From Blastococcus saxobsidens (lineage in GTDB: Bacteria > Actinomycetota > Actinomycetes > Mycobacteriales > Geodermatophilaceae), in assembly GCF_010682065.1 (NCBI RefSeq), contig NZ_JAAGWG010000004.1, positions 124,001 to 188,000 of the forward strand: a stretch of 64,000 nt of DNA, written 5' to 3'. Under the pieces are notes generated by a model. It made no database searches, had not been told where the DNA came from, and worked only from the letters and a program-made list of their open reading frames with translations. The position numbers and the translations under genes are program-made. Each line of letters starts with the position of its first letter. Positions within the stretch are counted from its first letter, which is position 1. Positions 4,335 to 32,058 of the stretch are shown here, piece after piece.

Positions 4335-4377
4335 GTGGAGACGAGGGGAATCGAACCCCTAACCCCCGCCTTGCAAA
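4335..4377. repeat. attL: 43-bp direct repeat, orphan 3' end of tRNA-Ala
   Basis: Identical over 43 bases to 19460-19502. It equals the T-arm, variable loop and 3' anticodon-stem portion of the tRNA-Ala gene on the minus strand, but the rest of the tRNA is missing, so this is the displaced chromosomal 3' end. Confidence 0.93.
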
Positions 4378-4788
4378 ATCGACCGGGGGGTGGTTTGGCG
4401 CAGTGGGCTGTGACTGAAAGCCCCACTTGACCAGCGCTTTTCCGGATGGTCGCTCGCGGCTGTCGTTGGCCGATTCTGGCCGTTTTGCGGACTATCTGCG
4501 GACTGTGTGCGGACTGGGACACACCAGAATGGTCGCCGCGGGCGCTCCGCCTGACCCCTCGGCCGCAGACGAGATCAGGCGACACGAGACTGCACCCGCC
4601 CCCATCACCCCCGGAGTGTCTCCGACTGCACCGGCCGCCGGAAGGGCGCTGCGCGTCCCTGCGGGATGGGCCTCCGGCCCACCCTTCCCCCGGCGCTGCA
4701 GTCGGAGGTGGGCGGGTTATGGGGAAGCGGAGGAGTGGGACGGAAGGCCTCCGGCGGCGCGTCCCCTTGGGGGCTGCCGGTCCGACGC
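4378..4788. other. Left end of the element, non-coding
   Basis: No credible gene in these 410 bases. The first 53 bases would encode the alternative integrase tail in the excised circle (in-frame stop at 4428-4430). At 4486-4515 lie three direct repeats TGCGGACT. The remainder (4520-4788) is GC-rich with short inverted repeats and no clear signal. Confidence 0.6.
4486..4515 (+). repeat. Three integrase arm-type-like repeats, left end
   Basis: TGCGGACT at 4486, 4497 and 4508, spaced exactly 11 bp, about 110 bp from the attL core. The same octamer with the same 11-bp spacing occurs twice near attR (19381, 19392). Exact helical spacing at both ends is what arm-binding sites of a tyrosine integrase or its excisionase look like. 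Confidence 0.6.
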
Positions 4789-5037
4789 TCAGACCCCAAA
4801 GCTGATGTGCGGCACGCCGTCGGACTCGGGCACACGACGCTTCATCCAGTACGTGTCGTTCGCCGTGTCGATGGCGACGAGCTGCCAGCCGAGGCCACCG
4901 AGGTCGTTCAGCACCTTCAGCACGTTGTAGTCGCTCGCCTCGGGCAGCTGGACGTCAGGCACCGAGGGCTCGATGACGAACTGGCGCGCCCCACCGGCGC
5001 GTTGCACGACGAACTTAAGGTGTTCCCACTGCTCCAT
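4789..5037 (-). CDS. Small unknown protein, DUF4177-like
   Basis: 82-residue protein beginning MEQWEHLKFVVQ. The middle (VLKVLNDLGGLGWQLVAIDT) and end (YWMKRR) resemble the short DUF4177 pattern of strand, then LNxLGxxGWELV, then a basic strand; that is a motif-level resemblance, not a proven assignment. I chose ATG 5037 over the longer reading from 5061 because the conserved part begins there. Last gene of a short minus-strand group at the left end of the element; no function assigned. Confidence 0.55.
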   Translation of the reverse strand: MEQWEHLKFVVQRAGGARQFVIEPSVPDVQLPEASDYNVLKVLNDLGGLGWQLVAIDTANDTYWMKRRVPESDGVPHISFGV

Positions 5038-5246
5038 GCCGCGGACGGTAGGGCCGACCACCGACAGAATCGCTCTAGCGTGCTCGCCGCCACGTCAGCT
5101 CGGCGCTCGAGCCGGCGGTCGAGCAGCCCGCGCCGGTGCTCATGGCGGCCATCGAGCCATCCGGTCAGCAGGCCGAAGACCGGACTCAGGATCGCGCCCG
5201 CCGCTGCGCCCCGAACAGCGCGGCCAGCACTCGTGCGGTCACGCAA
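4917..5246 (-). CDS. Possible small membrane protein, doubtful
   Basis: A TTG at 5246 overlaps the end of the upstream gene. The first 55 residues look coding: a hydrophobic patch (AVRGAAAGAILSPVFGLLTG) followed by an Arg/Glu-rich helix, with GC-rich third codon positions. The last third overlaps the downstream gene in another frame and has no protein-like composition, so the true end may be earlier or the gene may be frameshifted. Function unknown. Confidence 0.3.
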   Translation of the reverse strand: MRDRTSAGRAVRGAAAGAILSPVFGLLTGWLDGRHEHRRGLLDRRLERRADVAASTLERFCRWSALPSAAWSSGNTLSSSCNAPVGRASSSSSPRCLTSSCPRRATTTC

Positions 5247-5595
5247 TCTGGCCGGTGAGAACGCCGCCGGCGACGTCGACGATGAGGTCCCGCCCGGCGC
5301 TGAGGAAGCCGTCCCGGATCTTCTGCAGGCACGTCTTCTGCGGCCCCTCCGGTGCCCGCCCGATGGCCTGATCGAGCGCCGCCATGAAGCCCGCGTCCCG
5401 GAGCGTCCCGGTCACGGCCGAGGCCGTTCGCTGGTCCAGGCCGAACTTCTCGGCCAGGTGGTCCACGTCGACGCGGGCGTCCGGGCCGGACGAGAGCACG
5501 GTGGCTATCTCGCGGAGCACGAGAAGGTCCCGGCTGTACCACTGGTCAGGGAGGGGTTCGGGTCGAGGCACGGCTGGAACGGTAGGCGCGGGCAC
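5239..5595 (-). CDS. Unknown protein with winged-helix-like core
   Basis: 118-residue protein. Residues 20-75 (YSRDLLVLREIATVLSSG, then VDHLAEKFGLDQRTASAVTG and LRDAGFM) read like a winged helix: helix, helix, recognition helix after the FGLD turn. The C-terminal third is a plain helix region. It may be a small regulator carried by the element, but no specific family is recognised. It may be co-transcribed with the two small downstream genes on the minus strand. Confidence 0.55.
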   Translation of the reverse strand: MPAPTVPAVPRPEPLPDQWYSRDLLVLREIATVLSSGPDARVDVDHLAEKFGLDQRTASAVTGTLRDAGFMAALDQAIGRAPEGPQKTCLQKIRDGFLSAGRDLIVDVAGGVLTGQIA

Positions 5596-5664
5596 TGACG
5601 GTCACGCAGCCTTCGGTCGGGCGTCTGGCCGAGTCCCCTCACCTTTGCGCAACGACTTGCGGCA

Positions 5665-6705
5665 CTAGGCAGAAGCCTGCTCCCGGCGCAGCCGCGCCTC
5701 GCCGTGGAAGTTCACGGGGCTGTTGTCGAGCACCCGGTTGACGATCGTAGGGAAGAAGACCTCTGGCGAGAGGTTCGGCGGTACGGCGTCGCGACGTAGC
5801 CCGACATGCGGGAGGTCCCGGAGCCGTTGATCCAGCTCATCTTCGGGCAGCGGGAGCGGCAGCGGCTCCTCCTCAGCGGCGGCGCTGGGTTGTACACCAG
5901 CTGAGACAAGAGGGTCTTCGTCGTCCTCGTCGCCGCCCGGCGGGGACGGCAATTCGTCCGACCAGTCAGGGATGACGAGGCAGACGGCATCGTAAGCGTC
6001 GTCCTCGCGGCCGAGCTTGCCGAGAAGGTCGATGATCCAGGCGGCAATGTCGGCGAACTGCGGCGTCAGCGCCGTCGAGCGCAGGCTGTAGAGAAAACCA
6101 AGTGCCGCTTGCGGGTGCCGGCTGCGCAGGTTCTTGGCGTCGCCGTAGCTCTCTTCGACACGGTTGGCGGCATTCTTGCCGAACGACGAGTCCATCCGCT
6201 TGGTCGAGATCATGACTTCGGGACCGGTGTTCCAGGCGGACATGACGACGTCGACCTGCTTGACGTAGTTCTTGCCGAGGATGTTGGCGTTCGCTCCGGT
6301 CTCGTTGCTGTACGTCTTACCGGACTGCAGCATGGCATCGAGCACGCGCAGCTGTTCACGAGTTGCTTCCCGCCGTAGCGCCACCAGCGTCGACGGCAGG
6401 ATTCGTGGTGGACTGGCCCGGGGCCACACCAGATCAGGCTCGAAGCCGGCTCGGCGCAGCTCGTAGGCAGTCCAGACGTCAAGGGCCAAGGCCGGCACAC
6501 CGGACTGCGAGGCCGCTTGCAGCAGTAGCGGCACACCCAGCAGTTGCTGGAGGACGTCGTAGTCGGGGTTGTAGCGGACAGGCCCGTCTTCGGACTCGCG
6601 GTTCCATGGGTTGCTGTAGTCCTGCAGCTCCCCGCCGGTCTCCCGCTCAACGATCCGGTCGAACAGGGTCCAGGCCTCGGCCTTGAGACTGCGTTCAACG
6701 GCCAT
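5665..6705 (-). CDS. Type II restriction endonuclease (possibly XamI-like)
   Basis: 346-residue protein whose ATG overlaps the methyltransferase stop (TGATG), a layout typical of restriction-modification pairs. A PD-(D/E)xK-like core can be proposed: Asp152 in VKQVDVVMSAW, Glu163 in GPEVMIS and Lys169 in STKRMDSSFGKN. The region SRHPQAALGFLYSLRST is well ordered; residues 255-295 are an acidic, proline-rich linker. It would cut DNA not methylated by its partner. From memory it resembles XamI-type enzymes, but I cannot verify the family or the target site. Translational coupling keeps the nuclease behind the methylase. Confidence 0.7.
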   Translation of the reverse strand: MAVERSLKAEAWTLFDRIVERETGGELQDYSNPWNRESEDGPVRYNPDYDVLQQLLGVPLLLQAASQSGVPALALDVWTAYELRRAGFEPDLVWPRASPPRILPSTLVALRREATREQLRVLDAMLQSGKTYSNETGANANILGKNYVKQVDVVMSAWNTGPEVMISTKRMDSSFGKNAANRVEESYGDAKNLRSRHPQAALGFLYSLRSTALTPQFADIAAWIIDLLGKLGREDDAYDAVCLVIPDWSDELPSPPGGDEDDEDPLVSAGVQPSAAAEEEPLPLPLPEDELDQRLRDLPHVGLRRDAVPPNLSPEVFFPTIVNRVLDNSPVNFHGEARLRREQASA

Positions 6706-8447
6706 CAGGGACGCCGCAGCTTGTTATTGCCCGCGCTTCCGCCGATTGTGCCGCCTTCTCGACGGCGATGATCACGCGGAGCACCACCTCTCGCGACGCG
6801 TCGGGCCGTCAGCTCCTCGTGTCCTTGGCGCAGCGCCTTCACCTCAGCCTCTGGTAGCCCGAGTTCACCAACGAGAAGCACCTCATCGACCGCGCGGGCC
6901 GCCGACACGACTTGACCGCTCGCCAGGAGGCGGACCAACTGCGGCCGGAGTCTCCGTAGGGCCGTCTCGGCGGCTGCGGTTAGGGCGGGCGACGGCACGG
7001 GCAACAGGTCGGCTTCCTTGGGTTCCAGCTTGAGCATCCCGCCGCCGTAGGCGCGGCCAACCATTTCTGCGCCGAGCAGCGTCATGGAGTTCAAGGACGC
7101 CACCGGCAGCAGATCGCTGCCCAGCGCCCGGTGCTCCGGTTTCAGGTAGACGCCGTGCACCGAGTTGAGATGGTGCGCCCGGGCCTTGTTCGCGGACAGT
7201 CGCGGCGTATCGGCGTTCATGTAGGTCAGCAGCAGATCGGCCGGCTTCACCAGCGGCGTGCGCCACCACGGCTTTCGCACCCGGCACTTGTAGGCCTGAT
7301 CGACCTCTCGCGCCTCGCCCTCGTCGATGTACGCCCCCGCCGCCGCAGACGGCTCGCCAGCCGGTCGGAACAACCAGACTGCTGCGCCAGCGTCTCCGAG
7401 CTCAGTGAGCGCCGCGGTGGTGAGGCTCAGGCCTCGCAGGTGCCGCGAGCCGGGAGGCGACAACCGCAGCAGGTCTGACTTGGACAAGCCGAGCTGGGCG
7501 ACGCGCGCTGGGCTCAAGGCGAAGTACTTGTTGTTCCCCGTGACCATGCCGAGCGTGGTGTCACCCCACGTCTCCAGCAGCGCGAAGGACTCACTCGCCA
7601 GCAGCCCGGAATAGGCGCCGAGGGTCTCGCTGGTCAGCAGGCTGGCAGTCCACTTGCCGGCGGGCGGGATCGGCCGCCATAGCCTTGGCGTCGTCGTGTT
7701 CACCAGGTCATCGGCGTTCTTCGCTTGGTACAGCCGGAAGTGATCGGTGGGGCCGTTGGCGTAGCCGTCGGCCAGGAGCAGAACGACCTCCTCGAGTACC
7801 CCGGGAAAGACGCGCTCGTCGAAGGCAACGAGATCGACGTGCTCGAAGTTCTGCAGCAGGAAGGTGCGCACTCCAGCGGCATAGTTCACCGTCAAGAGCT
7901 CGGCCGGCAGGACCAAGCCGAGGCGGCCGCCCGGCTTCAAGAACTGTGCCGCATGCACGGTGAAAGCGGCCCATGACGACGCCAAGCCGGTCAAAGACAC
8001 ACCGCCGCGGAGCGCCGCCGCGCGAGACCGTGCCCGGCTCTCGCCGGAGAAGTCCTGGTAGCGGACGTAAGGCGGATTTCCGATGACCGCGTCGTACTGC
8101 TGCCCCGGCTCAACCCCGAAGAAGTCGCCGACGGTGACGGTCGCCTCCACGCCAGCCGCGGTCAGCAGCTCCCGTGCTGCTTGGGCGGAGTCCTCGTGCA
8201 GTTCGACGCCGTCGAGGTGGGGTAGCAGCGTCCGTCCGGTGCTGGCGGCCTCAAGGGCGGCCAGGCGATCGACTGCGGCGAGGAGGAATGCAGCCTCGCC
8301 ACACGAGGGCTCGAGGATCCGGTCCTCGACGGAGCGGACCGCCCAGTCAGTGATGTAGCGAGCGAGGGGTTCCGGGGTGAAGAAGGCGCCTCGAGCCTTC
8401 CTGAGGGACGCTGTATCAAGATCTGCAGAAGCCGACCGGAGCACCAC
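6705..8447 (-). CDS. N6-adenine DNA methyltransferase (type II RM)
   Basis: 580-residue methyltransferase of the Eco57I-like class. N-terminal RKARGAFFTPEPLARY is the usual pre-motif, SAM-binding motif I appears as ILEPSCGEAAFL (45-55), and catalytic motif IV is NPPY at 124-127, placing it among N6-adenine (gamma-like order) enzymes. The C-terminal half would hold the target-recognition region. It protects the element's target sites from the downstream nuclease. The last 40 residues are basic and low complexity. Start GTG 8447 is preceded by a weak ribosome-binding site; GTG 8444 is also possible. Confidence 0.88.
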   Translation of the reverse strand: MVLRSASADLDTASLRKARGAFFTPEPLARYITDWAVRSVEDRILEPSCGEAAFLLAAVDRLAALEAASTGRTLLPHLDGVELHEDSAQAARELLTAAGVEATVTVGDFFGVEPGQQYDAVIGNPPYVRYQDFSGESRARSRAAALRGGVSLTGLASSWAAFTVHAAQFLKPGGRLGLVLPAELLTVNYAAGVRTFLLQNFEHVDLVAFDERVFPGVLEEVVLLLADGYANGPTDHFRLYQAKNADDLVNTTTPRLWRPIPPAGKWTASLLTSETLGAYSGLLASESFALLETWGDTTLGMVTGNNKYFALSPARVAQLGLSKSDLLRLSPPGSRHLRGLSLTTAALTELGDAGAAVWLFRPAGEPSAAAGAYIDEGEAREVDQAYKCRVRKPWWRTPLVKPADLLLTYMNADTPRLSANKARAHHLNSVHGVYLKPEHRALGSDLLPVASLNSMTLLGAEMVGRAYGGGMLKLEPKEADLLPVPSPALTAAAETALRRLRPQLVRLLASGQVVSAARAVDEVLLVGELGLPEAEVKALRQGHEELTARRVARGGAPRDHRRREGGTIGGSAGNNKLRRP

Positions 8448-8566
8448 GGGATGCAGTCTTGCCTATGAGGCTCACAGAATCGGCGACCGGGGAAGAACGC
8501 CAAGGTCAGCGGGGTGGCGGGACAACCTCACCGGCAACACGCGCAGCGGGGGGTTGCAAACCGAAA

Positions 8567-8606
8567 CGATGGAGGCCCACGGTGCCTGAACCGTAGGCCT
8601 CCATCG
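8567..8606 (-). terminator. Hairpin terminator of the small three-gene cassette
   Basis: 11-bp arms (8567-8577 with 8596-8606) plus an inner ACGGT/ACCGT pairing. It lies about 95 bases past the stop of the 51-residue gene on the minus strand and upstream of the methyltransferase. Confidence 0.6.
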
Positions 8607-8701
8607 CGTTGCCGAGCGGCCGTTACCGAGGAGGCGGCGTGCGCCGCCGGTCCGCCGAGACCACATCTGTCGGAGTCAGCGCGTGTCGAGTTCGGACCTG
8701 A

Positions 8702-8857
8702 TTACATGTCTCGACAGTGCTTGCACTTCGGGTAGCCGTTCGTACCCGATCGACGGTTCGCCGGCGGGATCTGCTGACCGGACGGGCAGTTGCTCTGGTC
8801 GTGATAGACGTCCGGGTCCGAGGGGTTGATCGAGTAGTAGTTGCCGACCTTGGACAT
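8702..8857 (-). CDS. Conserved-looking 51-residue Cys/His small protein
   Basis: Short gene below the usual length cutoff. It begins MSKVGNYYSINPSDPDVYHD and ends with a C-x2-C pair (PKCKHCRDM) preceded by an earlier Cys in SNCPSGQQIP, so four metal-ligand candidates (Cys31, Cys46, Cys49, His48 or His20) are spread over a 50-residue fold. Ordered codons, ATG with AGGGAGG 5 bases upstream, and placement directly after a companion gene support a real gene. Small proteins of this type are found as hypotheticals in many bacteria as far as I recall. Function unknown; a zinc-binding peptide is the simplest guess. Confidence 0.7.
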   Translation of the reverse strand: MSKVGNYYSINPSDPDVYHDQSNCPSGQQIPPANRRSGTNGYPKCKHCRDM

Positions 8858-8862
8858 GAGTC

Positions 8863-8902
8863 CTCCCTACCGAGGCCCCACGGTGGTGGCCTCGGTAGGG
8901 AG
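8863..8902 (-). promoter_or_regulatory. Hairpin masking the ribosome-binding site of the 51-residue protein
   Basis: Perfect 15-bp arms (8863-8877 with 8888-8902), 10-base loop. On the minus-strand transcript the 3' arm contains both the stop codon of the preceding gene (8867-8869) and the AGGGAG ribosome-binding site of the next. Ribosomes finishing the upstream gene would open the stem, so the two would be translated in sequence. Confidence 0.55.
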
Positions 8903-9376
8903 CTTGACGGGGAACACTGACAGTTCTTGTACGAGTTCCCCGGTGAGGTCTCGGACCATCGACATCAGCCGAAGACGCGACGGGCGTCCGCGGACGGTGT
9001 AGAGATGGAGGTGCGGGAAGGTGGCGTGGCTCCTGGCGGCCGGATGCCAGTGCATCGCCACAGCTTCGCGCCGTCTGGAGTCCGGAATTCATACAGGTAG
9101 GCCGAGTGGTGACCCGCCAGCGCCCCCGGGTGACTTTGTACTTCTCCGGGTCGGTCGGAATGATCCGGTAGTGCATGGATGCAAGGAACCGGCAGCCTGC
9201 CGCGTCGCCACGCAGAACGAGGCCATCTCCGCCGTTAAGCCTCCATAGGTGCGTCTTGTCCGTCATCGCGCGACCGCCAGATGAGACGACGATCTTGCCG
9301 GAGCGAGGCAGGCCACGACTCGTTCGAGGGGGGCCAGGAACGCCTCGACCGCTTGATACGGCGAAGCTCCCGGCAC
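8867..9376 (-). pseudogene. Broken gene of unknown function, three frameshifts
   Basis: Four successive protein-like segments lie in three different frames: ASPYQAVEAFLAPLERVVACLA (start GTG 9376), then SGKIVVSSGGRAMTDKTHLW through RGRWRVTT, then SAYLYEFRTPDGAKLWR, then MHWHPAARSHATFPHLHLY through to the stop at 8867. Adding one base at each of three junctions (near 9308, 9105 and 9062) joins them into one protein of about 170 residues. The HWHP and HLHL motifs are memorable but I cannot name the family. It starts 6 bases after the upstream gene and ends 9 bases before the 51-residue gene. True decay or sequencing errors are both possible. Confidence 0.6.
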
Positions 9377-9382
9377 GAGGCG

Positions 9383-9595
9383 TCAGCGTACGAGGGGCAG
9401 CGCCATGAGCACGTCGAGCAACCCCGGATGGTCATCGGGATCGACGTCGCCGAACGTGCCCTCGTCGAAGGCGGCGAGGAACTCCTCGCCGCTCATGTCC
9501 ATCGCGGCGTGCGCGATTTGGTCAAAGGCCGCGCGGGCTTCCTCCGGGGTGAGCTCACTGACCTCGACCGACGCGCTGCTCTCTGCGATCGACAT
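9383..9595 (-). CDS. Small acidic protein of unknown function
   Basis: 70 residues, strongly acidic, beginning MSIAESSASVEVSELTPEEA and ending in a hydrophobic tail GLLDVLMALPLVR. The pattern ELTPEEARAAFDQIAHAAMDMSGEEFLAAFD reads as two short helices. ATG 9595 has GGAGGGGTG upstream; the longer reading from 9646 adds a Val/Gly/Asp-rich stretch unlike a protein. First gene of a three-gene cassette with the broken gene and the 51-residue protein. Size and charge would suit an antitoxin or adaptor, but nothing in the sequence proves that. Confidence 0.65.
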   Translation of the reverse strand: MSIAESSASVEVSELTPEEARAAFDQIAHAAMDMSGEEFLAAFDEGTFGDVDPDDHPGLLDVLMALPLVR

Positions 9596-9957
9596 CGTCA
9601 CCCCTCCTCCATCCACACCTCCATCCACAATGACGTCCACAACCACGTGCCTACAGGATGCCCCCGACGGAAACCTCGCGACGGTTCGGGGCGCCTACGC
9701 CGTCACACCTTCAGGGCATGCGGTCGTCGGCGAACGCCAGCCCACAAGAAGGGCGAAGTGCACGTCCGTAGGGCCGAAACGGACGCGCCGGTCAACTCTA
9801 GCCAGCTACCTTGGTTGCGGACTGAGCACGGCCGTGGGGCACCGTTTCGGCTGTGCCGCCGCGCCGTCTCTGAGCCCGCACTTGATTCCGGTTTACTCAT
9901 CTCCGGTCGAGACGGGCACCGGCCCACGGTGCGAAGAAGTGACTGGAGGAGTCGAGC
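9596..9957. other. Divergent spacer upstream of lsr2 and the small cassette
   Basis: About 360 bases, less GC-rich than the genes on either side, with no credible gene. It must carry the divergent promoters for the cassette (minus) and lsr2 (plus), but no clear -35/-10 pair stands out. One TGCGGACT octamer occurs at 9815. Confidence 0.45.
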
Positions 9958-10287
9958 GTGGCAACGACGACGCAGATTGTGTTCGTGGACGATTTGACCG
10001 GCGACTTGCTGCCGGACGGAGGAGAGACGGTCCACTTCGCCCTTGACGGCGCGTCGTACGAGATTGACCTCAACCAGGCAAACGCAGACGCCCTGCGCGC
10101 GGCGTTCAAGCCGTACATTCAGGCCGGCCGGAAGGTGGGCCGCCAGCCGGCCATCGGCCGCCGCGGGCGCCCGACCCGTCACCACACGGCGGCCATTCGC
10201 TCGTGGGCGCGGCAGAACGGGCATGACGTCTCCGGGCGTGGCCGTATTCCGATTGCGGTTGTGGAGGCCTACGAAGCGGCCCATTGA
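9958..10287 (+). CDS. lsr2: Lsr2 family nucleoid-associated silencer
   Basis: 109-residue Lsr2 protein. The N-terminal dimerisation domain (residues 1-60) starts [16 protein letters not shown] and includes [15 protein letters not shown]. The C-terminal DNA-binding domain ends [13 protein letters not shown], with the RGR minor-groove hook and [19 protein letters not shown] typical of Lsr2. Lsr2 binds AT-rich foreign DNA and represses it; a copy inside a mobile element may silence the element or compete with the host copy (inference). GTG 9958 has GGAGGA 7 bases upstream. Confidence 0.95.
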
Positions 10288-10540
10288 CGAAAATCGCGTA
10301 AGCGACCGGACTGGCCCTCGCCCAGACCAGCGAGCCGCGACGTCACACGTCCGGCGAGGCAGCTGTCCTCGAGAGTTCGACGGACGTCGGGGGGTCGCAA
10401 GCGGTTCCGCTACGTCCAAACGAGCCCGGCGAGGGGACCATCCTGGCTGCGGCGCTCCCCAGTCGTTCTGCAGCTCTGCTCCCCTGGCCCCGCGCCGTGC
10501 ACTTGTAGATCGCTGTGACCCTGGGGTCTGCCTTGCCGGC

Positions 10541-10562
10541 GGGGCCGGCCTGAGCCGGCCCC
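10541..10562 (-). terminator. Hairpin after the chemoreceptor gene
   Basis: 9-bp stem GGGGCCGGC/GCCGGCCCC with a 4-base loop, 13 bases beyond the chemoreceptor stop on the minus strand. The rest of 10288-10574 shows no gene. Confidence 0.6.
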
Positions 10563-10574
10563 ACCAGCAGGGGA

Positions 10575-12221
10575 TCAGTAGGTGAACCTCCCGACGGTGG
10601 TGCGCAGGTCGGTCGCCATCCGGGACAGCTCGTCGACCGCCGTACGGGTCTGGGTCAGCGCCTGGGTGGTCGACTCCGCCGCCGTCGAGACCCCGGTGAT
10701 GTTCTCCGCGATCTGCGTCGAGCCGCTGGCGGCCTCCTGCACCGAGCGGGACATCTCGTTGGTCGTCGCCGTCTGCTCCTCCACCGCACTGGCGATGGTG
10801 GTCTGCCGGTCGGAGATCTGCGCCACGATCGAGCTGATCTCCTCGATCGCGCTCACGGCAGCGCCGGTGTCGCCCTGGATCGCCAGCACCCGCCGCGCGA
10901 TGTCCTCGGTCGCCTTCGCCGTCTCCTGTGCCAGCTCCTTCACCTCGTTCGCGACGACGGCGAAACCCTTGCCCGCCTCACCGGCACGGGCGGCCTCGAT
11001 GGTGGCGTTCAGGGCCAGCAGGTTGGTCTGCTCGGCGATGCTCGTGATCACCTTCACGACGTTGCCGATCTCCGCCGAGGACTCACCCAGCTTGGCGACC
11101 GTGGCCGTCGTCGTCTCGGCCGCGGTCACGGCCTTGGTGGCCACGTCGCTGGCCTCGGCAGCGTTGCTGGCGATCTCCCGGATGCTGGCGTTCATCTGCT
11201 CGGCACCGGCCGCGACGGTCTGCACGTTCCGGCTGACCTCCTCCGCGGCCGACGAGACGACACCGGACTGGGCGCTGGTCTCCTCGGCACCGGCCGAGAT
11301 CTGCGCCGACGAGGCGCTGAGCTCCTCCGAGCTCGCCGCCACCGCATCGGCGGAGGACACCACCGTGGCCATCAGGTCGCGCAGCTTGGCCACGGCCTCG
11401 TCGAGGGAGGCTCCCATCCGGCCCAGCTCGTCGTGCGTGGTCAGCCCGCTGGTGGCGGTCAGGTCGCCGGCGGCCAGGGCCGTCGTCACGGACTGCACCT
11501 TGCGGACGCCCCGTGCGATGCCGCTGGCGACGAAGAGCCCGAGGCCTGCAGCGAGGGAGATGCCGACGACAAGCAGGACGATCGCGACGACCCGCTGGGC
11601 AGCGGCATCGTCCTGGGCGGCCTGCGCCGCATCCTCGGCGGCCGCCTGCTCCGCGGTGATCAGCTCGTTCAAGGTCTCCTCGACCTGGCTGCTGAGGGGA
11701 CGGGCCTCCTGCGTGTTGGCCGCGATCCATCCCTGGTAGTCGTCGGCCAGGGCGAGCGGGGCGAGGGTGGTGTTCGCCACCTGAAGGAATTGGGTGTACG
11801 TCGTCTCGGCCTCCGCGGCCAGCTCGGCGTTGGCCGGGTTGGGGCCGTCCGCCAGGTAGGCGTCGAGGGCCGACCGGAACTTCGCCTCGATGTCGGCCAG
11901 TCCGTCCTGGTTCTGCCGAGCCTGTACCGGGTCCACGGTCAGCAGGACGTCCCGAATGGCGGCGCGAGTGTCCTTCACGGCACCGCGCATCGCGGCGACG
12001 TTGCTGATCCCATGGACGTTGTGCTCCAGCATGGACTGCGTCCGGGCGGCCGCTGTCCCAAGGCTCTGAATGCCGAGAACCCCGACCGCGACAGCCACCA
12101 GGGCAGCAACGCTGACCGAGACGAGGACCTTGACCTTGACGCCGCGGTCGCCCCACCAGGCACGACGGCGGTTACCTGTGCCCGAGGCGGGGTTTTCAGG
12201 CAGACGTTCTGATTGTGACAT
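10575..12221 (-). CDS. Methyl-accepting chemotaxis protein
   Basis: 548-residue chemoreceptor. Cytoplasmic N-terminus, membrane helix 1 at about 27-50, an extracytoplasmic four-helix-bundle sensor (55-210, rich in Ala, Glu and Gln), membrane helix 2 at about 213-240, HAMP domain (240-290), then the long coiled-coil signalling domain with the hairpin tip [19 protein letters not shown]. It would report to CheA/CheW of the host; no che genes are in this window. ATG 12221 follows GGAGAT. The upstream in-frame extension is not protein-like. A chemoreceptor as element cargo is unusual; the ligand is unknown. Confidence 0.93.
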
Positions 12222-12739
12222 CGGGCTATCTCCAGGCGCGGGCCGCAATGAGCGGGATCGAAGCGGGCACACGAGTCCACGGTTCGCTTTGCGGCCCAGT
12301 GCACTCGCGGTCGAACCCGTTTGAATATCGGGGATTCGACGTGCCGGACCATACGTCCGCCTCATGTCGGCAACGGCGCGGCCAAACACGTTTCCCGACT
12401 GCTTTACTAAGTTGTTGTCAGGAAGGTTGGTCACCATTCCTACCGTGTCGACATGGCGCCAACAACGGTCGCCGACATGAGACCAAGGACGATCGACGAG
12501 AGTACGATGAGACCACAGCGTCGCTGCTGGCCACCGCACCGCACCGCAAGGTCATCGCTCAACGAGACGGCCTCCCATGTCAAATAAGCTTGCTCGATTC
12601 GCCTGTTCCGACGGCGCAAAGCAAGCCTCTGCACTGCCCCCGCACGTGGCATCGTGGGACATTGCGGCTGCAAACGGGGGTGTACGGCGTACCGTGCTCC
12701 CGGCCGCAGTGTCCCTTTACTCGACGCGGGGGCGCTCCC
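12222..12739. other. Spacer upstream of the chemoreceptor, no gene seen
   Basis: About 520 bases with AT-richer patches (for example near 12390-12430 and 12560-12600). Open frames here lack family-like sequence. It probably contains the chemoreceptor promoter and perhaps decayed gene remnants. Confidence 0.45.
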
Positions 12740-13045
12740 ATGACAGGTGACGACAGCTGCGATGCCCGTCGACTTCTTGGGGAGGCAGCCTCGCTACTCG
12801 AGGCGGTCGGCTCGGATCGGGACCGAATACCTGCCCCGGTCGCGGAGGACTGCCGTCGGGCGGCAGACCTGCTCCGGCAAGCAGTAGGCTTGCCCGCCCC
12901 CGCGGTCATGCCCGCTGCGGACCCCGAGTCGGCCGTCCGCGAGGCCATGACCATGCTGTCCAAACTTAGCGACGCGCAGCTGTCTACTGAGCCGACGCTG
13001 ACGGCTGTGACGATCCTCTTGCGCGTCTTTGTACGCATCGGCTAG
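12740..13045 (+). CDS. Unknown helical protein
   Basis: 101 residues from ATG 12740. Mostly helix-forming (LLGEAASLLEAV, CRRAADLLRQAVG, ESAVREAMTMLSKLSDAQL) and ending LLRVFVRIG. No ribosome-binding site is obvious and no family is recognised. It lies between the chemoreceptor and degraded sequence, so it could be a remnant. Confidence 0.4.
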   Translation: MTGDDSCDARRLLGEAASLLEAVGSDRDRIPAPVAEDCRRAADLLRQAVGLPAPAVMPAADPESAVREAMTMLSKLSDAQLSTEPTLTAVTILLRVFVRIG

Positions 13046-13227
13046 CCGCATTTGCCATGGACCTGCTCGCCGGGCAACAGCTGAGCCGCTTCGCGGCGAT
13101 CCCGGGTAGCACGGTGTCGGCGAGCTAGTCTCGGCCAGCTACTGGACGGCGACCGCCGACTCGGGATAGGCCAGCCGGGCCCAGCTCCGCGCGGCGCCCA
13201 TCGCCCTGCCGCCACACAGGAGACCCC

Positions 13228-13617
13228 ATGCCGCCGACCCCCAAGAGTCTGGTCCAGCCTGACCTGACCGACCCGCTGACCGAAATGGTCCTGCGCGCGT
13301 GTACCGCCCGCGCCCGCACCCCCCGCTACCTCTCGCTCACTCTGGGCGTCGCACTGGCTGCCGTGCACCATCAGCTCGATCACCTTGTCGCCGCGGGGTT
13401 GCTGGCCGCCGAGGCCCCCTCCCGTGTCGACGGTCGGCTAGTTACTCCCTTCCGCACTATGCCGCGCGCCGCCACACGGGCCCACGACCGGAGTCGCCAA
13501 CCTGTCGATCCCACTCGAGCGTCAGCTACGAGGCGGAACCCAGATCGGCCGACCGCCTGCTCGACGCTGAGGCCGTCGTCGCGCAGCGCGACGAACGCCT
13601 CCAGCAATCACCGGTAG
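13228..13617 (+). CDS. Possible winged-helix protein, probably truncated
   Basis: ATG 13228 has AGGAG 5-6 bases upstream. The first 70 residues read like a DNA-binding winged helix (LTEMVLRACTARARTPRYLS, HHQLDHLVAAGLL). After about residue 75 the composition turns into random Arg/Ser/Thr and overlaps a transposase-like remnant on the other strand, so the original gene probably ended earlier or was interrupted. Confidence 0.35.
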   Translation: MPPTPKSLVQPDLTDPLTEMVLRACTARARTPRYLSLTLGVALAAVHHQLDHLVAAGLLAAEAPSRVDGRLVTPFRTMPRAATRAHDRSRQPVDPTRASATRRNPDRPTACSTLRPSSRSATNASSNHR

Positions 13618-13673
13618 CCGGTGTCCTTGTCGATGCCGGCGGCGCGGGCGGACGGTTTGAGACCCCGCCCCAT
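13500..13673 (-). pseudogene. Transposase-like helix-turn-helix remnant with a stop codon
   Basis: From ATG 13673 the minus strand reads MGRGLKPSARAAGIDKDTGY-R, then TGA (13608-13610) where a Trp would fit, then in the same frame LLEAFVALRDDGLSVEQAVG. This looks like the N-terminal helix-turn-helix of an IS30-type or similar transposase; the rest of the protein is absent. I am unsure of the family. Confidence 0.35.
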
Positions 13674-14120
13674 TTACCGCAGCCAGCAACCGGATGCCAG
13701 CAGCGGAATTCCGTCGCGCATGCACCGATGACCGGCTTCGAAGAAGGCGTTGCGTCGACCGATAGAACCTGGGGAGGACAATCAGACGCCCCGGGAGTCG
13801 GTCCCAGCCTCGTCCGGCTGGCCGCTCGACATCCGCGCCGACGGGTCGCAGGTGGCCGGTAGCGCGAGTCGGGGCACCCGGAGCTGATTGTCATCCGCAC
13901 CTGCAGCTCGGAAGAGGGTGCTCTGCGCTCAGTCGACAATCGTCGTATACAACCAAAGACGTAACTCTCGTGGTGTCTGTACGCCCATCGCTCCAGTTAT
14001 TCTCGGGCAAGCCCAGGCCTTCGCCAAACGACGGCACGCATGCTACCCTTGCGGGTAGTTCGGGCCCCGCTTCGCGGGGCCCATTGCCGTTTCTAGGGGT
14101 GACCTGTTGGCCATTATTGG
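13674..14120. other. Leader of the relaxase gene, candidate oriT region
   Basis: Non-coding, AT-richer at 13940-14040. Two tight hairpins stand directly before the relaxase: CTACCC-ttgc-GGGTAG (14043-14058) and GGGCCCCGC-ttc-GCGGGGCCC (14062-14082). An inverted repeat just upstream of a relaxase gene is where a transfer origin is usually found; the second could also be an attenuator or terminator. Confidence 0.4.
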
Positions 14121-17100
14121 GTGGCGTTGAAAATGCACGGGGGAATGAAGGTGTACGTCGGCGACCCGGCCGCCGCCCGCGCCTATGTGGAGGCCGACCG
14201 GGGTCGCGCCGATGACTACTACCTCACCGAGGGCACCGGGTTCGCCCGCCGCTTCACCGCCACCGACGGGCGCGTGACCGAACTGGTCTCGCTGACCGGC
14301 GACGGCTACGAGACCTGGGTCGCCGGCCGCGACCCGGACACCGACCAGCCGCGGGGGCAGCTGCGCGACGACGCGCGGGCGGTGCGGTTCGTGGAGGTGG
14401 TGGTCAACGGCCCGAAGACGTGGTCGCTGGCCGCCGCGCTGCACCCGGACATCGCCGCCGCGTACGAGGCGGCGCAGGACCGCGCGGCCGGGCAGATCGT
14501 CGGCTGGCTCTCCCAGCACGCCACCACGCGGGTCGGTCCGCGCGGCGGGCAGGTGCAGGTGCCGCTACAGGCGCTGGAGGCGGCCACGGTGCGGCACTAC
14601 ACCTCCCGGGCGGAGGATCCGCACTGGCATCTGCACCTGCAGCTGCTCTCCCGCGTGTTCGCGGCCGGGAAATGGCGGGGCCTGCACACCGTCGGCATCC
14701 GGGACTCGCTCGGGGCGATCAACGGGATCGGGCATGCGGCGATGGCGTGTGATCCGGAATTGAACGCCGCATTCGCCGCGCACGGCTACACGAAGGACGC
14801 GACTGGAGAAATACTGGAGCTCGCCGACTATGTCGGCCCGTTCAGCGCCCGGCACGCGCAGATCGCCCGGAATGTGGACCGCTACGAAGCCGAATGGACG
14901 GCCGCGCACCCCGGTGAACAACCCGGCCCGGCGTTGCGGCGGGCGTGGGACGCCCGCGCCTGGGCCGACGGCCGCCCGGACAAGGTCACCCCGCAGCCCG
15001 GTGCGAACGTGGAGGAGCGCTGGCGGAGGGGGCTGCACGACCTGGGTTGCCGCGACCCCGAAGGTCCCGTTGACCTGGCCCCCACCCCGATCGGCGCGCT
15101 CGACCGCGACTGCGCGGCAGAAGTGGTCCTCACCAGGCTGGCCGCCGCCCGGTCGGCGTGGAACGCCGCCGACGTCCGCGGCGAGGTGGAGCGGCTGATC
15201 GCCGCCGCCGGTGTGGTGGTCGCGGCTGCGGTGCGCGTCGAGCTGGCAGAGGACGTCACCGCCCGCGCGATGGACCGCTGCGTGTCGCTGCTGGATCGCG
15301 ACGGGATACCGGAGCACATCCGGGCCTGGACGTCGCAGCCGGTGCTCGAGGTCGAGGCCGACCTGACCGCCCGGCTCGCTGCCCGCGCCGCGACCGGCCG
15401 ATCGGACCCGGAGCTGACATCGCCCCTCGACCTCGCGGCCGGCGGCGCGAGGCTGGACCCGGGACAGGCCGCGGTGGTCGCCGTGCTGGCCGGTGACCGG
15501 CCGCTGGCCGTGGTGGAGGGCGCGGCCGGCGCCGGCAAGACCACCACCCTGGCCGCGGTCCGCGACGTGCTCGGCCAGCAGGGACGTCAACTGGTGGTGG
15601 TGACCCCGACGCTGAAGGCCGCCAAGGTCGCCGCCGCGGAGGTGGGTTCGGCGGCCGGGTCGGCGGCATGGCTGGCCTACCAGCACGGCTGGCGGTGGAA
15701 CGACGACGGCGCCTGGACCCGGCTCGCGCCCGGGCAGACCGACCCGGTCACCGGCCGGGTCTACGCCGGCCCGGCCGAGCAAGCGCGGCTACGGCCGGGA
15801 GACCTGCTGGTGATCGACGAGGCCGGCATGCTGGACCAGGACACCGCCCGCGCCCTACTCACCGTCGCCGACGAGTCCCGGGCGCGGGTGGTGCTGCTCG
15901 GCGACCGCCACCAGCTGGCTGCGGTCGGCCGCGGCGGAGTTCTCGACCTCGCCGCCGACGCCGCCGACCCGGCGGGGCACCTGACCCTGGAGGCGGTGCA
16001 CCGCTTCACCCGCACCGGCACCACCGGCGCGCCGGTGCCCGACATCGAGTACGCGGACCTGACCCTGGCCATGCGTACCGGCACCGACCCCGCCGTGGTG
16101 TTCGACGCGCTCCTGGCGCGCGGGCAGATCCTGCTGCACCCCGACGCGGCCGCGCTGCGGGAGGCGATCGCGGCGGCCGCCGCCGAGCACCACCGCCGCG
16201 GCGAACCCGTGGCGGTGGTGGTGGACACTCGCGAGCAGGCCGCCGAGCTCAACGCCGCCATCCGGGAACGACGGGTCGCCGACGGCCGGGTCGACGACCA
16301 GCGCATCGCCGTCACCGGCGCCGGGCAGAGGATCGGCGCTGGGGACCGGATCGCCACCCGCCGCAACGACCACGACCTGGGCGTGGCCAACCGCGACACC
16401 TGGACCGTCACCGCCGTCGACCGAAGCGGCGCGCTATATGTCACCCCGGCCCGGCCTGGCACCGGGGACGTTCCCGACGGTGTCACCCCGGCCCCGCAAG
16501 GGGCGCGGGTGCTGCCCTCCGACTACGTCACCTCGAACGTGGAGCTGGCCTACGCGAGCACCGCGCACGGTGTGCAGGGTGAGACCGTCGCCGCCGCACA
16601 CCTGGTGATCGGGGAGCACACCGGGGCCGGGTCGGCCTACGTTGGAATGACCCGCGGACGCGAGGCGGACACCGCCCACCTCATCGCCGCCGACGCGGAC
16701 GAGGCGAGGGAGCAGTGGGTCGCCGTCTTCGGCCGTGACCGCGCCGACCTCGGGCCCGCGCACGCCGCCGAGGAAGCCGCCGCCGAGGCCGCCCGCTACG
16801 CCCCGTCCCGTCCTCTGGAAGAGGTGCTGACCGAGCTGCGCGCGGGGTGGACGGCCGAGCAGCGCTGCCTGGACCGGCTCGCGTTGTGGGAGCCGGAGCG
16901 CGACACACTGCGCAACGTCATCGCGCTCGAAGCCCCCCACGTCGGCGAACTCGCGAACCTCGAAGCCGCCCGGGATCAGACGGCGCTCGCCGCGGCGCGG
17001 GCGAGCCGCCGGGCCGGGGAGAGCGGGGCGGCTGTCGCCGCCCACGCGGAGCAGGTCCGCGACACCCTCCTCGCGCGCTGGGACGGCGAACGCGACGCCG

Positions 17101-17771: not shown

Positions 17772-17932
17772 GCAGGGCCGCCCCCATGGGCCGTCCCGGG
17801 CCCGGACACATGCAACAGGAGGAGAACCGGAGAATTTCGGAAGCAATCAGTGGTCGGCTGTCACCAATCGCACCCAAATGGCGCCTTCTCCAGTGAAGGA
17901 GCACAGCCCACCCGAGCCCACCGGAGCCAGCC

Positions 17933-18157
17933 ATGTCCGATCAGACCGCCCGCCGCGAGCCCGAACTGCTCACCATCACCGAAGCCGCCGAACTCCTCCG
18001 CGCTCCCGTCGCCACCCTCCGGTACTGGCGACATCTGGGCACCGGGCCGCGCAGCTTCCGCCTCGGCCGCCGCGTCCTCTACCGCCACGATGACCTCCGC
18101 AGCTGGATTGACGATCAGCACGGCAAGGTCGCGCCTGTCCCGGCCGCGCGTCTGTGA
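17933..18157 (+). CDS. Small helix-turn-helix protein, likely excisionase
   Basis: 74 residues with a MerR/AlpA-type winged HTH: LLTITEAAELLRAPVATLRY, WRHLGTGPRSFRLGRRVLYR, then DDLRSWID. Proteins of this type immediately upstream of a tyrosine integrase usually act as excisionase or as a regulator of integrase. ATG 17933 follows a GGAG. The integrase starts 150 bases downstream. Confidence 0.85.
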   Translation: MSDQTARREPELLTITEAAELLRAPVATLRYWRHLGTGPRSFRLGRRVLYRHDDLRSWIDDQHGKVAPVPAARL

Positions 18158-18307
18158 TCGGCTCGAGGCACGGCGCACCGCCTTCCACAGATCGCGCTGG
18201 CCCCGCCGGAGGAGCAGGGAGCCGACGGCAGGCTGACCACCGGGGTGATCGCGTCGTGCAGCCCCACGCTACGGCGGCCAGCGCTTGCAGAGAGGCAGGT
18301 GATCGAG

Positions 18308-19522
18308 ATGGCGTCGATCGCACGGCGGCCTGATGGCACGTACCGGCCGCGGTACCGCGACGAGAACGGCAAGGAACACGCCCGCCACTTCAAGCGCAAG
18401 GTCGACGCCCAGCGATGGCTCGACGAGGTCACCGCGGCCGTTCAGACGGGCACCTACGTCGACCCCAAGCGGGCCAGGACGACCGTGGGCGAGTTGGCAC
18501 CCGTCTGGCTCGCCGGGAAGATCAACCTCAAGCCCACCAGCCGGGCCCGCTACGCCGACGTCCTCAAGACCCACGTCCTGCCGCGCTGGGGGAACGTCGC
18601 GCTGATCCGGGTGACGCACGGCGACGTGCAGGCCTGGCTGTCCGAGCTCTCCGACCGGGGGCTGGCCGGGGCCTCGGTCCGCAAGGCGCAGGGCGTCCTG
18701 TCCGGCATCCTTGGGCTCGCGGTGCGCGACCGGCGCCTGGCGGTTAACCCCGCACTCGGTGTCGCCCTGCCCCCGATGCGGGAGAAGCGCCGCCGGTACT
18801 TGACAGCCGAGCAGCTGGAGGCGCTCGCCGAGGCCGCCGGGCCCGGCCGGGTGGCGGTGCTGGTGCTCGGCTACTGCGGGCTGCGCTGGTCGGAGCTGGC
18901 CGCGCTGCGTGTGCGGCACTTCGACCTGCTCCGCGGGCGGGTGCTCGTCGAGGAGGCGGTCACCGAGGTCGACGGCTCCCGCCTGGTCTGGGGCACGCCG
19001 AAGACCCACGGCCGCCGCTCGGTGCCACTGCCGCGGTTCCTCGTCGACGAACTGGCCCGCACGGTGGTGACCCGCCCTGCCGACGAGCTGGCCTTCCCCT
19101 CGCCGCAGGGCGCGGTGCTGCGCAACCGGAACGCCCGGTCCGCCTGGTTCGACGCCGCGGCCCGGGCCATCGGGGAGCCCGGGCTCACGCCGCACGAACT
19201 CCGGCACACCGCAGCCTCGCTGGCGATCAAGGCCGGCGCCAACGTCAAGGCGGTGCAGCGGATGCTCGGGCACGCCTCGGCGGCCATGACCCTGGACCGC
19301 TACGCCGACCTGTTCGACGACGACCTGGACGACGTGGCCGACCGGCTGGACGCCCTGCGGGCCTCATCCCTCGGACGAGTTGCGGACTTTTTGCGGACTA
19401 AGCCCCCTTCGGAGGGCTCTCCGGAGCCTCCCGCGGAGGTGAATCCCCAGGTCAGAGGAGTGGAGACGAGGGGAATCGAACCCCTAACCCCCGCCTTGCA
19501 AAGGCGGTGCTCTGCCAATTGA
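18308..19522 (+). CDS. int: Tyrosine recombinase/integrase
   Basis: 404 residues as integrated. N-terminal arm-binding domain (MASIARRPDGTYRPRYRDEN), core-binding SAM-like domain (about 55-150), catalytic domain with Arg193 (GLRWSEL), His296-x-x-Arg299 (HELRH), His322 (LGHAS) and nucleophile Tyr332 (RYADLF). All key residues are present, so it should be active. It recombines attP with the 3' end of tRNA-Ala. The last 20 codons lie inside attR, so the C-terminus is set by the chromosome. ATG 18308 is preferred over the reading from 18245 because the conserved sequence begins there. Confidence 0.95.
   Translation: MASIARRPDGTYRPRYRDENGKEHARHFKRKVDAQRWLDEVTAAVQTGTYVDPKRARTTVGELAPVWLAGKINLKPTSRARYADVLKTHVLPRWGNVALIRVTHGDVQAWLSELSDRGLAGASVRKAQGVLSGILGLAVRDRRLAVNPALGVALPPMREKRRRYLTAEQLEALAEAAGPGRVAVLVLGYCGLRWSELAALRVRHFDLLRGRVLVEEAVTEVDGSRLVWGTPKTHGRRSVPLPRFLVDELARTVVTRPADELAFPSPQGAVLRNRNARSAWFDAAARAIGEPGLTPHELRHTAASLAIKAGANVKAVQRMLGHASAAMTLDRYADLFDDDLDDVADRLDALRASSLGRVADFLRTKPPSEGSPEPPAEVNPQVRGVETRGIEPLTPALQRRCSAN
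19381..19399 (+). repeat. Two arm-type-like repeats, right end, inside int
   Basis: TGCGGACT at 19381 and 19392, 11 bp apart, with a degenerate CTCGGACG one more 11-bp step upstream (19370). They lie within the last codons of int and 60 bp from the attR core. Confidence 0.6.
19460..19502. repeat. attR: 43-bp direct repeat within tRNA-Ala
   Basis: Matches 4335-4377 base for base. The element's copy supplies the 3' part of the working tRNA-Ala gene, so integration does not destroy the tRNA. Confidence 0.93.
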
Positions 19523-19533
19523 GCTACGTCCCC
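19461..19533 (-). tRNA. tRNA-Ala (TGC)
   Basis: 73 nt, reads GGGGACG...CGTCTCCA on the minus strand. Acceptor 7 bp (one G-U), D-arm AGCTC/GAGC, anticodon loop TTTGCAA (anticodon TGC), T-arm AGGGG/CCCCT with GTTCGATTC. CCA is not encoded. It is the element's integration target. Confidence 0.96.
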
Positions 19534-30886: not shown

Positions 30887-32058
30887 GTCGTGCCCTCCCC
30901 GGTCGGGATCGCGTCCTTGACCACGACGGCGAAGCCGTCGCCCACCTCGACCCGCGCACCGCGCAGCTCCGGAGGGACGTCGTCCACCACCGCCGCGGTG
31001 ATGAGGGTCTGCTCGGCCGACCGGGCGACGGCGGCCAGCGCCGCCCGACGCTCGGCGTCGAGGGTGGCGAAGACGTCGTCGAGGATCAGGATGGGGTCCT
31101 CGCCCTCGGCCCTCAAGAGGGCGAACGTCGCCAGTTTCAGCGCCAGCGCGAGCGACCAGGACTCGCCGTGGCTGGCGAACCCCTTCGCCGGCGCGGGTCC
31201 CAGGTGGATGACCAGGTCGTCGCGGTGCGGCCCGACCAGCGTCATGCCGCGGTCCAGCTCATCCCCTCGGCGCTCGGCGATGCGGGCGCCCAGGGCCTCG
31301 GTCAGCTCCGCGACCGAGGGCAGCGCGACCCCCGGCACGAGCGCGGCGCCCTCCCCGGCCAGCGGCACCGTGGAGCTGTACCCGAGCCCCGCCACGGCGG
31401 CGCCGGCGCCGGCCACCCCGGCGTAGGACTCCGCGACGTGCGGGACCAGGTCGGCGATCAACCGGAGCCGCGCGTCCAGGAGCTGCCCCCCGAGGTCGGT
31501 CAGGTGGCCGTCCCAGACGTCGAGGGTCTCCATGGCCTTGCCCCGCGCCAGCCGCGCCGTCTTCAGCAGGGCGTTGCGCTGCTTGAGCACCCGGTCGTAG
31601 TCGCTGCGGACGCCGGCCAGCCGCGGGGTGCGGGTGACCAGCAGCTCATCCAGGAAGCGGCGCCGTTCGGTCGGGTCGCCGCGCACCAGGGACAGGTCCT
31701 CGGGGGCGAACAGCACCGTGCGGACCAGGCCCAGCAGCTCGCGGGGACGCGGCAGCGGGCCCCGGTTGACCCGGACCCGGTTGGCCCGCCCGGGGTTGAT
31801 CTCGATCTCGACCAGCAGCTCGCGGTCACCGCGGCGCAGCGCGGCACGGACCACCGCCTGCGCCGCGCCGTGACGCACCAGGGGTGCGTCTCCGGAGACC
31901 CGGTGGCTGCTCATGGTCGCCAGGTAGCCCACGGCCTCGACCAGGTTGGTCTTGCCCTCGCCGTTGCGGCCGACGAACACCGTGGGCCCCGGGCCCAGGG
32001 CCAGGTCGACCCGCTCCCAGCTGCGGTAGTCCCCGACCTGCAGGTGCCTCAGGTACAC
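30883..32058 (-). CDS. recF: DNA repair and recombination protein RecF
   Basis: 391-residue SMC-like ATPase that helps RecA load on gapped DNA. Walker [14 protein letters not shown] (about 30-42), signature-like region [16 protein letters not shown], Walker [14 protein letters not shown] (about 325-337). Starts GTG 32058 ([14 protein letters not shown]). Between gnd and dciA, transcribed away from oriC. Confidence 0.96.

Follow-up and report, generated by a model that had tools for sequence, protein, structure and literature searches.

Phased octamer repeats at both ends of a Blastococcus mobile element are predicted arm-type sites whose sequence covaries with the N-terminal domain of its integrase

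The octamer TGCGGACT, repeated in exact 11-bp steps at both ends of a mobile element of Blastococcus saxobsidens, very probably represents the arm-type sites of the element's own tyrosine integrase, Int. We base this prediction on arrays that flank the core on both sides, on their fixed distances from the cores, on their recurrence beside related integrases, and on octamer sequences that change in step with the N-terminal domain of Int. The same lines of evidence support the original prediction, made from the DNA letters, that the arrays look like arm-type sites. The coupling of octamer bases to Int residues 23, 24, 25, and 27 suggests that the N-terminal domain of Int reads the octamers, and the actinobacterial integrases of this group probably read their arm sites through a compact, partly decodable code. 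Arm sites decide direction and assembly in this recombinase class, and in the portions of the literature covered here they have been called phage by phage. A family-wide rule linking residue to base makes arm-site specificity testable with single mutants.

Results

An integrated element with its integrase at the right core

The window (the whole stretch of 64,000 nucleotides that was analysed) contains a 15.2-kb mobile element that spans positions 4335 to 19502 and is bounded by a 43-bp duplication of a tRNA-Ala core. Its relevant features are as follows.

4335..4377, no strand: left att core, a copy of the 3' half of tRNA-Ala(TGC); 43-bp identity with 19460-19502
4486..4493, +: predicted left arm unit 1, TGCGGACT, exact match
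4497..4504, +: predicted left arm unit 2, TGCGGACT, exact match, +11
4508..4515, +: predicted left arm unit 3, TGCGGACT, exact match, +11
17933..18157, +: 74-aa HTH_17 excisionase-like protein, putative RDF (PF12728, E 1.3e-11)
18308..19522, +: tyrosine integrase, 404 aa (PF00589, E 1.4e-22; PF14659, E 4.5e-07)
18308..18478, +: predicted N-terminal (arm-binding) domain of Int, residues 1-57, from covariation, predicted fold, and PF14657 in relatives
19370..19377, +: degenerate right arm unit (predicted), CTCGGACG, 5/8 matches, at -11
19381..19388, +: predicted right arm unit 1, TGCGGACT, exact match, inside int codons
19392..19399, +: predicted right arm unit 2, TGCGGACT, exact match, +11, inside int codons
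19460..19502, no strand: right att core, inside tRNA-Ala; 43-bp identity with the left core
19460..19533, -: tRNA-Ala(TGC), integration target (ARAGORN)

Of 23 genomes in the genus, the one under study included, 6 contain a contiguous match (query 1-453) to a query made of the joined outer flanks, and the empty site therefore exists in nature. Int adjoins the right core, and just upstream of int sits the gene of the HTH_17 excisionase-like protein, which scores 22.6 bits against the TIGR01764 excise model, under the cut-off of 28.8. Six Int residues (R193, K232, H296, R299, H322, and Y332) are invariant in 60 aligned sequences; we take them to be the catalytic residues R-K-H-R-H-Y, and with these, together with core-binding and catalytic domains, Int has the domain make-up of the IntTn916/pSAM2 type. 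The int frame extends across the right core, runs antisense to the host tRNA gene, and ends ...ALQRRCSAN (19460-19522). In the circular form the frame would go on as ...ALQNRPGGGLAQWAVTESPT (window 4335-4430), so that integration would alter the last Int residues.

Phased octamers just inside both cores

Exact TGCGGACT occurs six times in the window, always on the + strand (4486, 4497, 4508, 9816, 19381, and 19392). Both arrays lie on one strand, just inside the cores, in steps of exactly 11 bp. This is the arrangement originally predicted, with three copies near attL (4486/4497/4508), two near attR (19381/19392) preceded by a weak third unit (19370, 5/8), and the right-hand repeats inside the codons of int (18308-19522); the single copy that had been placed at 9815 is present, its true position being 9816. 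In number alone the octamer is close to chance, with six copies observed, a shuffle mean of 2.84, and at least six copies in 4 of 100 shuffles, which bears out the earlier caution that the octamer by itself proves nothing. The copy at 9816 was considered as a site and put down to chance, because 2.84 such octamers are expected per window.

That solitary copy and the near-chance count are what would favor an explanation of the repeats as chance products of G+C-rich DNA. The phased arrays, however, stand far above every control, whether in simulations or in the surveys of 112 genomes and 268 integrases described below. Across the window only the octamer of the left array has three exact copies at 11-bp steps, and only TGCGGACT is paired at 11 bp in two places far apart. 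Forty simulated 64-kb sequences gave no triple at 11-bp steps and no octamer paired in two distant places, and an 11-bp-phased octamer was shared in none of 20,000 simulated pairs of ends (300 bp each). A chance origin of the phased arrays is refuted by these controls, and we assign it practically no probability.

Phased pairs in the host genome and its family

The phased TGCGGACT pair is found six times in the host genome: three times in this element, once at each end of a second element, and once on contig 32, so that five of the six pairs sit at the ends of two elements. The second element lies on contig 5 and encodes an Int of the same family. The positions concerned are these.

Contig 5, 4246/4257: putative arms adjoining int, exact pair
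Contig 5, 31048/31059: putative far arms, exact pair, with a one-mismatch unit at 31037
Contig 5, starts 4190 and 31179, minus strand: candidate core, a 14-bp repeat outside both arrays
Contig 32, 31860-31878: sixth phased pair, about 450 bp from the contig end

On contig 5 the distance from core to far arm is about 106 bp (108 in the window) and that on the near side 48 bp (60 in the window); the 14-bp core is only a candidate, because the same comparison also gave an unrelated 15-bp match. Around the contig 32 pair no related integrase was found in the 9.9 kb read, and none of the genome's 13 PF00589 matches lies on that contig; the pair may mark the distal side of a further element interrupted by a break in the assembly.

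Frequent phased pairs elsewhere had been named as an observation that would speak against arm-type sites, and a chance count of 11-bp pairs had been proposed. Pairs do occur elsewhere, 76 of 112 genomes of the family having them, but the reversed control pattern occurs in 0 of 112, and the host's own pairs are nearly all accounted for by element ends. A related int ORF lies at most 1.5 kb away in 13 of 29 family-survey loci checked, one per genome. In six genomes of relatives the phased pair was present in 6 of 6, with a reversed control of 0.

Distances between arrays and cores

Distances between the putative arms and the cores, obtained by subtraction of the listed coordinates, are largely preserved in other insertions at the same tRNA. 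From the start of the right arm to the start of the core there are 79 bp in the window and in five other genomes (G001, G009, G014, G015, and G017). From the start of the core to the start of the left arm there are 151 bp in the window, G001, and G017, 162 bp in G009 (its core placed via a gapped match), G014, and G015, and 141 bp in G021. Since 162 is 151 + 11, the left arm of the second group stands one 11-bp step further out, and 151 or 162 holds in 6 of 7 cases. The two ends in G001 and in G014 are on different contigs and therefore need not belong to one element. On its right side G021 lacks an exact pair. In G008 the left flank with most of the core is located some 6 kb away from the right flank, and the listing shows no exact pair there.

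Arrays beside related integrases

Relatives of Int were taken from named genomes (80 integrases), with more from viral contigs and from two further genome draws, the first of which comprised 80 stretches with a subset of the matches listed; the L048 integrase had no relative in a viral scan. Beside the first 80 relatives, the commonest 7-mer was repeated near the int stop in 26 loci at a period of 11, compared with 1-12 loci for every other period between 8 and 24. For the 268 distinct integrases that make up our training set, an exact octamer repeat at 11 bp lies near the int stop in 175, and repeats at periods of 9, 10, 12, 13, 14, and 15 in 19, 11, 25, 4, 2, and 20, respectively; five shuffles of the set gave 1-9 at period 11. 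The other 93 of the 268 have no exact 8-mer array at 11 bp.

The octamer itself varies among integrases (TGCGGAC, TGTGGGC, TGCGTAC, TGTTGCC, TGTGCCC, and others). Registration of the arrays demanded TG followed by C or T, and 22 of the 175 training arrays that did not fit were dropped from the covariation set; several of these are plainly the same motif with an altered first base (e.g. CGTGGGCA), and others are chance-like. The commonest heptamers of the 153 registered arrays are TGTGGGC (60), TGCGGAC (47), TGCGTAC (7), TGCCCAC (6), TGTGCCC (5), and TGTCCAA (5). TGCCCAC is the reverse complement of the TGTGGGCA type. The six integrases with this opposite array orientation come from viral contigs such as L141, five of them having TDKR or TDRR as residues 24-27, and array orientation therefore varies within the family.

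A second array of the same octamer, visible only given enough flanking DNA, was found in at least 12 of the 153 loci (reversed control 0/153), one of the 12 (L024) being in the opposite orientation. The second arrays lie 6.5-10.7 kb off in six loci and 209-286 bp off in five viral contigs, where they consist of two units. With the far side assigned by position (cores were checked for the window and contig 5 only), 11 far-side arrays have three units in 7 cases, one-mismatch units counted, and two in 4, while near sides have two full units in 8 of 8 among those listed. The 3+2 layout thus recurs without being universal.

The location of the arrays invites a different explanation, namely that the right repeats merely code for the tail peptide of Int (ADFLRT) and that the left copy was left behind by a different int gene. 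Of the 153 registered arrays, 127 fall within the int ORF; 40 TGCGGAC arrays located there are in a common reading frame (among the 12 commonest combinations listed), and the left array of the window would read ADYLRT in one frame. A coding constraint of this kind does not account for the 26 registered arrays beyond the stop codon or for second arrays of the same octamer at the distances given above. Moreover, when 500-bp stretches of the two ends of the window element are compared, the single identity of at least 12 bp besides the core is 12 bp around one repeat unit. We judge the coding explanation to be very improbable and retain arm-type sites as the preferred reading.

Covariation of Int residues with octamer bases

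The Int model comprises 363 columns, of which those with more than 30% gaps were skipped when columns were ranked as predictors of the octamer; the best are residues 25, 24, 27, and 23 in window numbering. Among 110 cluster representatives, all 33 with Glu23 have C3 and 63 of 66 with Gln23 have T3, base 3 being two-state by construction because the register demands TG and then C or T, for which the permutation allows. Asp25 or Glu25 accompanies G6 in 49 of 51 representatives, Ala25 accompanies A6 in 21 of 21, Lys25 C6 in 5 of 5, and Thr25 A6 in 8 of 11, and Ser25 is mixed (A 5, C 5, G 2). Arg25 occurs with A6 in 4 of 4 as registered; on a later reading, a two-base shift of the register would pair it with C6. 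A nearest-neighbor prediction from residues 23, 24, 25, and 27, limited to neighbors less than 50% identical in the core-binding and catalytic part, was right for bases 3-7 in 74% of cases, compared with 35% for overall identity, 43% for four random N-terminal columns, and 45% for guessing the commonest class.

The associations were also followed on a parsimony tree built from the rest of the Int protein. Eight branches carry a change of both residue 23 and base 3 where 0.8 is expected (p 1.6e-8), comprising four changes of E to Q with C to T, three of Q to E with T to C, and one of Q to S with C to T. The residue 25 group and base 6 share 14 branches (2.4 expected), and residue 15 and base 4 share two (0.3 expected, p 0.035). 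Between L054 or L062 and L082, which share 74% identity over the core-binding and catalytic part, Asp25 is replaced by Thr and G6 by T. Among the closest 25 listed pairs with different octamers, 8 have no difference at residues 15, 23, 24, 25, or 27; each of these pairs includes L353 or L207, and we suspect the octamers of these two to be in the wrong register or due to chance. Two rules are weaker in the training loci, K/R25 giving C6 in 6 of 11 and not-R15 giving not-G4 in 5 of 12, and the first may suffer in part from a wrong register in the R25 class. Between CrimD and Anaya the site of residue 23 changes (Q/E) without the expected T3/C3 change, the register there being uncertain.

Written on an octamer TGxxxxxx, the code that these associations probably reflect would pair C at base 3 with Glu23 and T with Gln23. 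Base 6 would be G with Asp25 or Glu25, A with Ala25 and often with Ser25 or Thr25, and C with Lys25 and perhaps likewise with Arg25, and base 4 may answer, weakly, to residue 15. The chemistry of such a code would be sensible, with an acid facing cytosine, glutamine facing adenine, and lysine facing guanine. Residues 23, 24, 25, and 27 are accordingly named here as candidate contact residues of Int, and residues 13 and 15 less surely.

Rules applied to fresh genomes and to missing arrays

The rules were noted down before class-level genomes were searched. From 60 of 73 same-class matches, which gave 61 hit rows, 55 test integrases were kept; four lacked an N-terminus, one was partial, and one was more than 90% identical to a training sequence. 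An array at 11 bp is present in 22 of the 55, and 2-3 arrays at each of periods 9, 10, 12, and 13. Registration succeeded for 21 of the 22, and three minus-strand arrays were left out, leaving 18 plus-strand loci to be scored. On these, 21 of the 24 calls made by six rules were correct (permutation mean 10.2, p 0.00025): E23-C3 in 5/6, Q23-T3 in 6/6, D/E25-G6 in 1/1, K/R25-C6 in 2/3, A/S/T25 with E23-A6 in 5/6, and not-R15-not-G4 in 2/2. A seventh noted rule, that R15 'mostly' goes with G4, stands outside the 24 scored calls, and its inclusion makes the tally 34/40; it was right in 13 of 16 plus-strand loci, and is without predictive value in the test set because its record over all registered loci, 13 of 19, stands against a base rate of 13/21.

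Three residue combinations permit a motif to be predicted from residues 23 and 25, and one or other of them is present in 60 integrases that lack an exact array (48 of the 93 in the training set and 12 of the 33 in the test set). With at most one mismatch allowed in each unit, the predicted motif turned up in 30 of the 60 (training 11/19, 10/21, and 4/8; test 4/10 and 1/2), and the other 30 stay without it. Two other class motifs and two scrambled motifs were found in 0 of the 60.

The octamer follows the integrase rather than the excisionase

The arrays could instead be operators of the 74-aa HTH excisionase (RDF), which would bind direct repeats one helical turn apart and bend the DNA. Direct repeats about one helical turn apart near att, here in 11-bp steps, are what such operators would present, and Apl, the RDF of phage 186, is described as binding at att a set of five direct repeats spaced 10-11 bp apart (PMC7498355). 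Of the 268 integrases, 185 have an HTH_17-like ORF no more than 2.5 kb upstream, mean RDF identity is somewhat higher within octamer classes (0.48 and 0.41) than between the two main classes (0.34), and on the tree the best RDF column, with an enrichment of 2.66, equals Int residue 24 (2.6). The octamer sequence, however, does not follow the RDF protein, to which its link is far weaker than to Int. In 77 loci the top RDF column carries an excess information of 0.48 on the octamer, less than the best background Int column (0.62), whereas Int residues 23, 24, 25, and 27 carry 0.98, 0.74, 1.25, and 0.75; residues 13 and 15, at 0.48 and 0.36, are not above the top RDF column. Tree enrichment in the same number of loci has a median of 1.56 over 44 RDF columns, and for Int residues 13, 15, 23, 24, 25, and 27 it is 3.9, 5.85, 2.92, 2.6, 3.03, and 3.38, so that residue 24 alone of these does not exceed the best RDF column. 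The same octamer accompanies RDFs of identity down to 20-21%, and at 19 of 56 TGTGGGC loci with at least 1.2 kb of upstream sequence no RDF of this type is detectable. An operator function of the arrays is, in our estimate, very improbable, and of the two proteins named in the original prediction the evidence points to Int over the HTH protein as the one reading the arm-type sites.

The N-terminal domain of Int

PF14657 was detected in 24 of 30 family members at E <= 1 (best 1e-9), and the window Int scores 19.1 bits against it (E 0.001), under the cut-off of 22.3. The predicted N-terminal fold (mean pLDDT 90.7) has strands at residues 3-6, 12-17, and 23-25 and a helix at 31-47, which places residues 23, 24, 25, and 27 in and just after the third predicted strand. 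A fold search with the N-terminal domain alone returned nothing at E <= 0.001. In a second look the matches were weak (Z 3.7-5.7) and included plant AP2 domains and Tn916 Int-N; we use them as supporting evidence only, because unrelated folds rank between the two. The modeled domain resembles that of Tn916 Int (1bb8; Z 4.3, rmsd 1.6 over 45 residues). The window element thus has the same motif on both sides of its core and a cognate Int whose N-terminal domain is predicted, from its family (PF14657) and fold, to bind arm sites, and recognition of the motif by that domain is argued by the covariation and the fresh data.

Discussion

In the excised circle the order of sites would be the pair (19381, 19392), the 43-bp core, and the triple (4486, 4497, 4508), all in one orientation. 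Each octamer would be read by the three-stranded-sheet N-terminal domain of one Int monomer while the C-terminal domains hold the core, so that Int would bridge arm and core and assemble the recombination complex, and the 11-bp step would set neighboring Int domains on the same face of the DNA. That Int physically contacts the sites, bridges arm and core, and requires the sites for integration or excision is our inference. By analogy with lambda and Tn916, the pair and the triple would serve the two sides of the intasome that Int bridges, and the HTH protein, a likely RDF in excision, would tip the balance to that reaction.

The arm-type sites of phage lambda Int, P1, P2, and P'1-P'3, are arranged 2 + 3 around the core. 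The repeats described here are lambda-like in that short sites flank the core on both sides in a 2 + 3 arrangement, and unlike those of lambda in their sequence, in being all direct, and in being strictly 11 bp apart; the predicted Int structure aligns with lambda Int (1z1b) over 362 columns with a TM-score of 0.55 by query and an rmsd of 10.9. In the structural models Tn1549 Int (6en2, 6emy) appears as the best relative of the window Int. The integrases of Tn916/Tn1549 and of the pSAM2 group are assigned to the IntTn916 subgroup (PMC8138268), which the window Int resembles in protein and structure.

Putative arm sites of this kind are already known from mycobacteriophages, as far as the sources covered extend, and the proposed recognition code is the new part. 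A report on the Cluster K phages describes for Pixie a direct pair of putative arms to the left of the core and three to the right, a sixth being inverted, a 2+3 direct layout that resembles the arrays of the window, and its authors propose Int residues 17 and 19 as specificity candidates (PMC3203893). These correspond to residues 13 and 15 of the window Int (profile, Anaya) or to 14 and 16 (MAFFT, CrimD). For Cluster J, the putative arms in the text covered are pairs of the repeat TGCATACg/t located 3' of int (PMC3706429). Unlike the family-wide set analyzed here, these Cluster K and J proposals are, in the parts covered, comparisons of a few phages. The same kind of scan found TGCATACG at 11 bp in Bombitas, an Omegavirus; near int of Pixie it found 10- and 12-bp-spaced repeats and none at 11, and in phages Finkle and mu1/6 it found 10-bp repeats and, up to 900 bp from int, no 7-mer recurring at 11 bp. 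For the Mesorhizobium element ICEMlSymR7A, the source in the part covered reports five attP arm sites of IntS, all five needed for efficient integration, which differ from ours in their consensus TGKTGGTATC (PMC11963761). Literature matches listed for the octamer TGCGGACT include no title on integration, those for TGTGGGCA with integrase none on arm sites by title, and none of the matches listed is a study of an arm-site code or coevolution or a family-wide tested rule, subscription literature being thinly covered.

If the code is true, the Int sequence would allow arm sites, and hence element ends, to be predicted, and one or two substitutions could redirect arm specificity, a switch of which the Asp25-to-Thr difference noted above is a natural case; the substitution E23Q, for instance, would shift the preference of Int from TGCGGACT towards TGTGGACT. 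The rule may help to find the ends of elements without a tRNA duplication, as with the contig 5 arms that frame the 14-bp candidate core, and orthogonal integration vectors could build on it.

Other genes of the element

A MobF/TrwC relaxase-helicase is encoded inside the element (14121-17771; NF041492 above cut-off), and with it the element would be mobilizable if it is without mating-pair genes. A Type II-like DNA methyltransferase (PADLOC, E 2e-212) and, beside it, a 346-aa ORF lie in 5665-8447; the ORF has no match in Pfam, NCBIfam, or PADLOC at the thresholds used and is a candidate novel-type restriction partner of the adjoining methyltransferase. The cargo also includes an Lsr2 homologue and a methyl-accepting chemotaxis protein, within 9958-10287 and 10575-12539.
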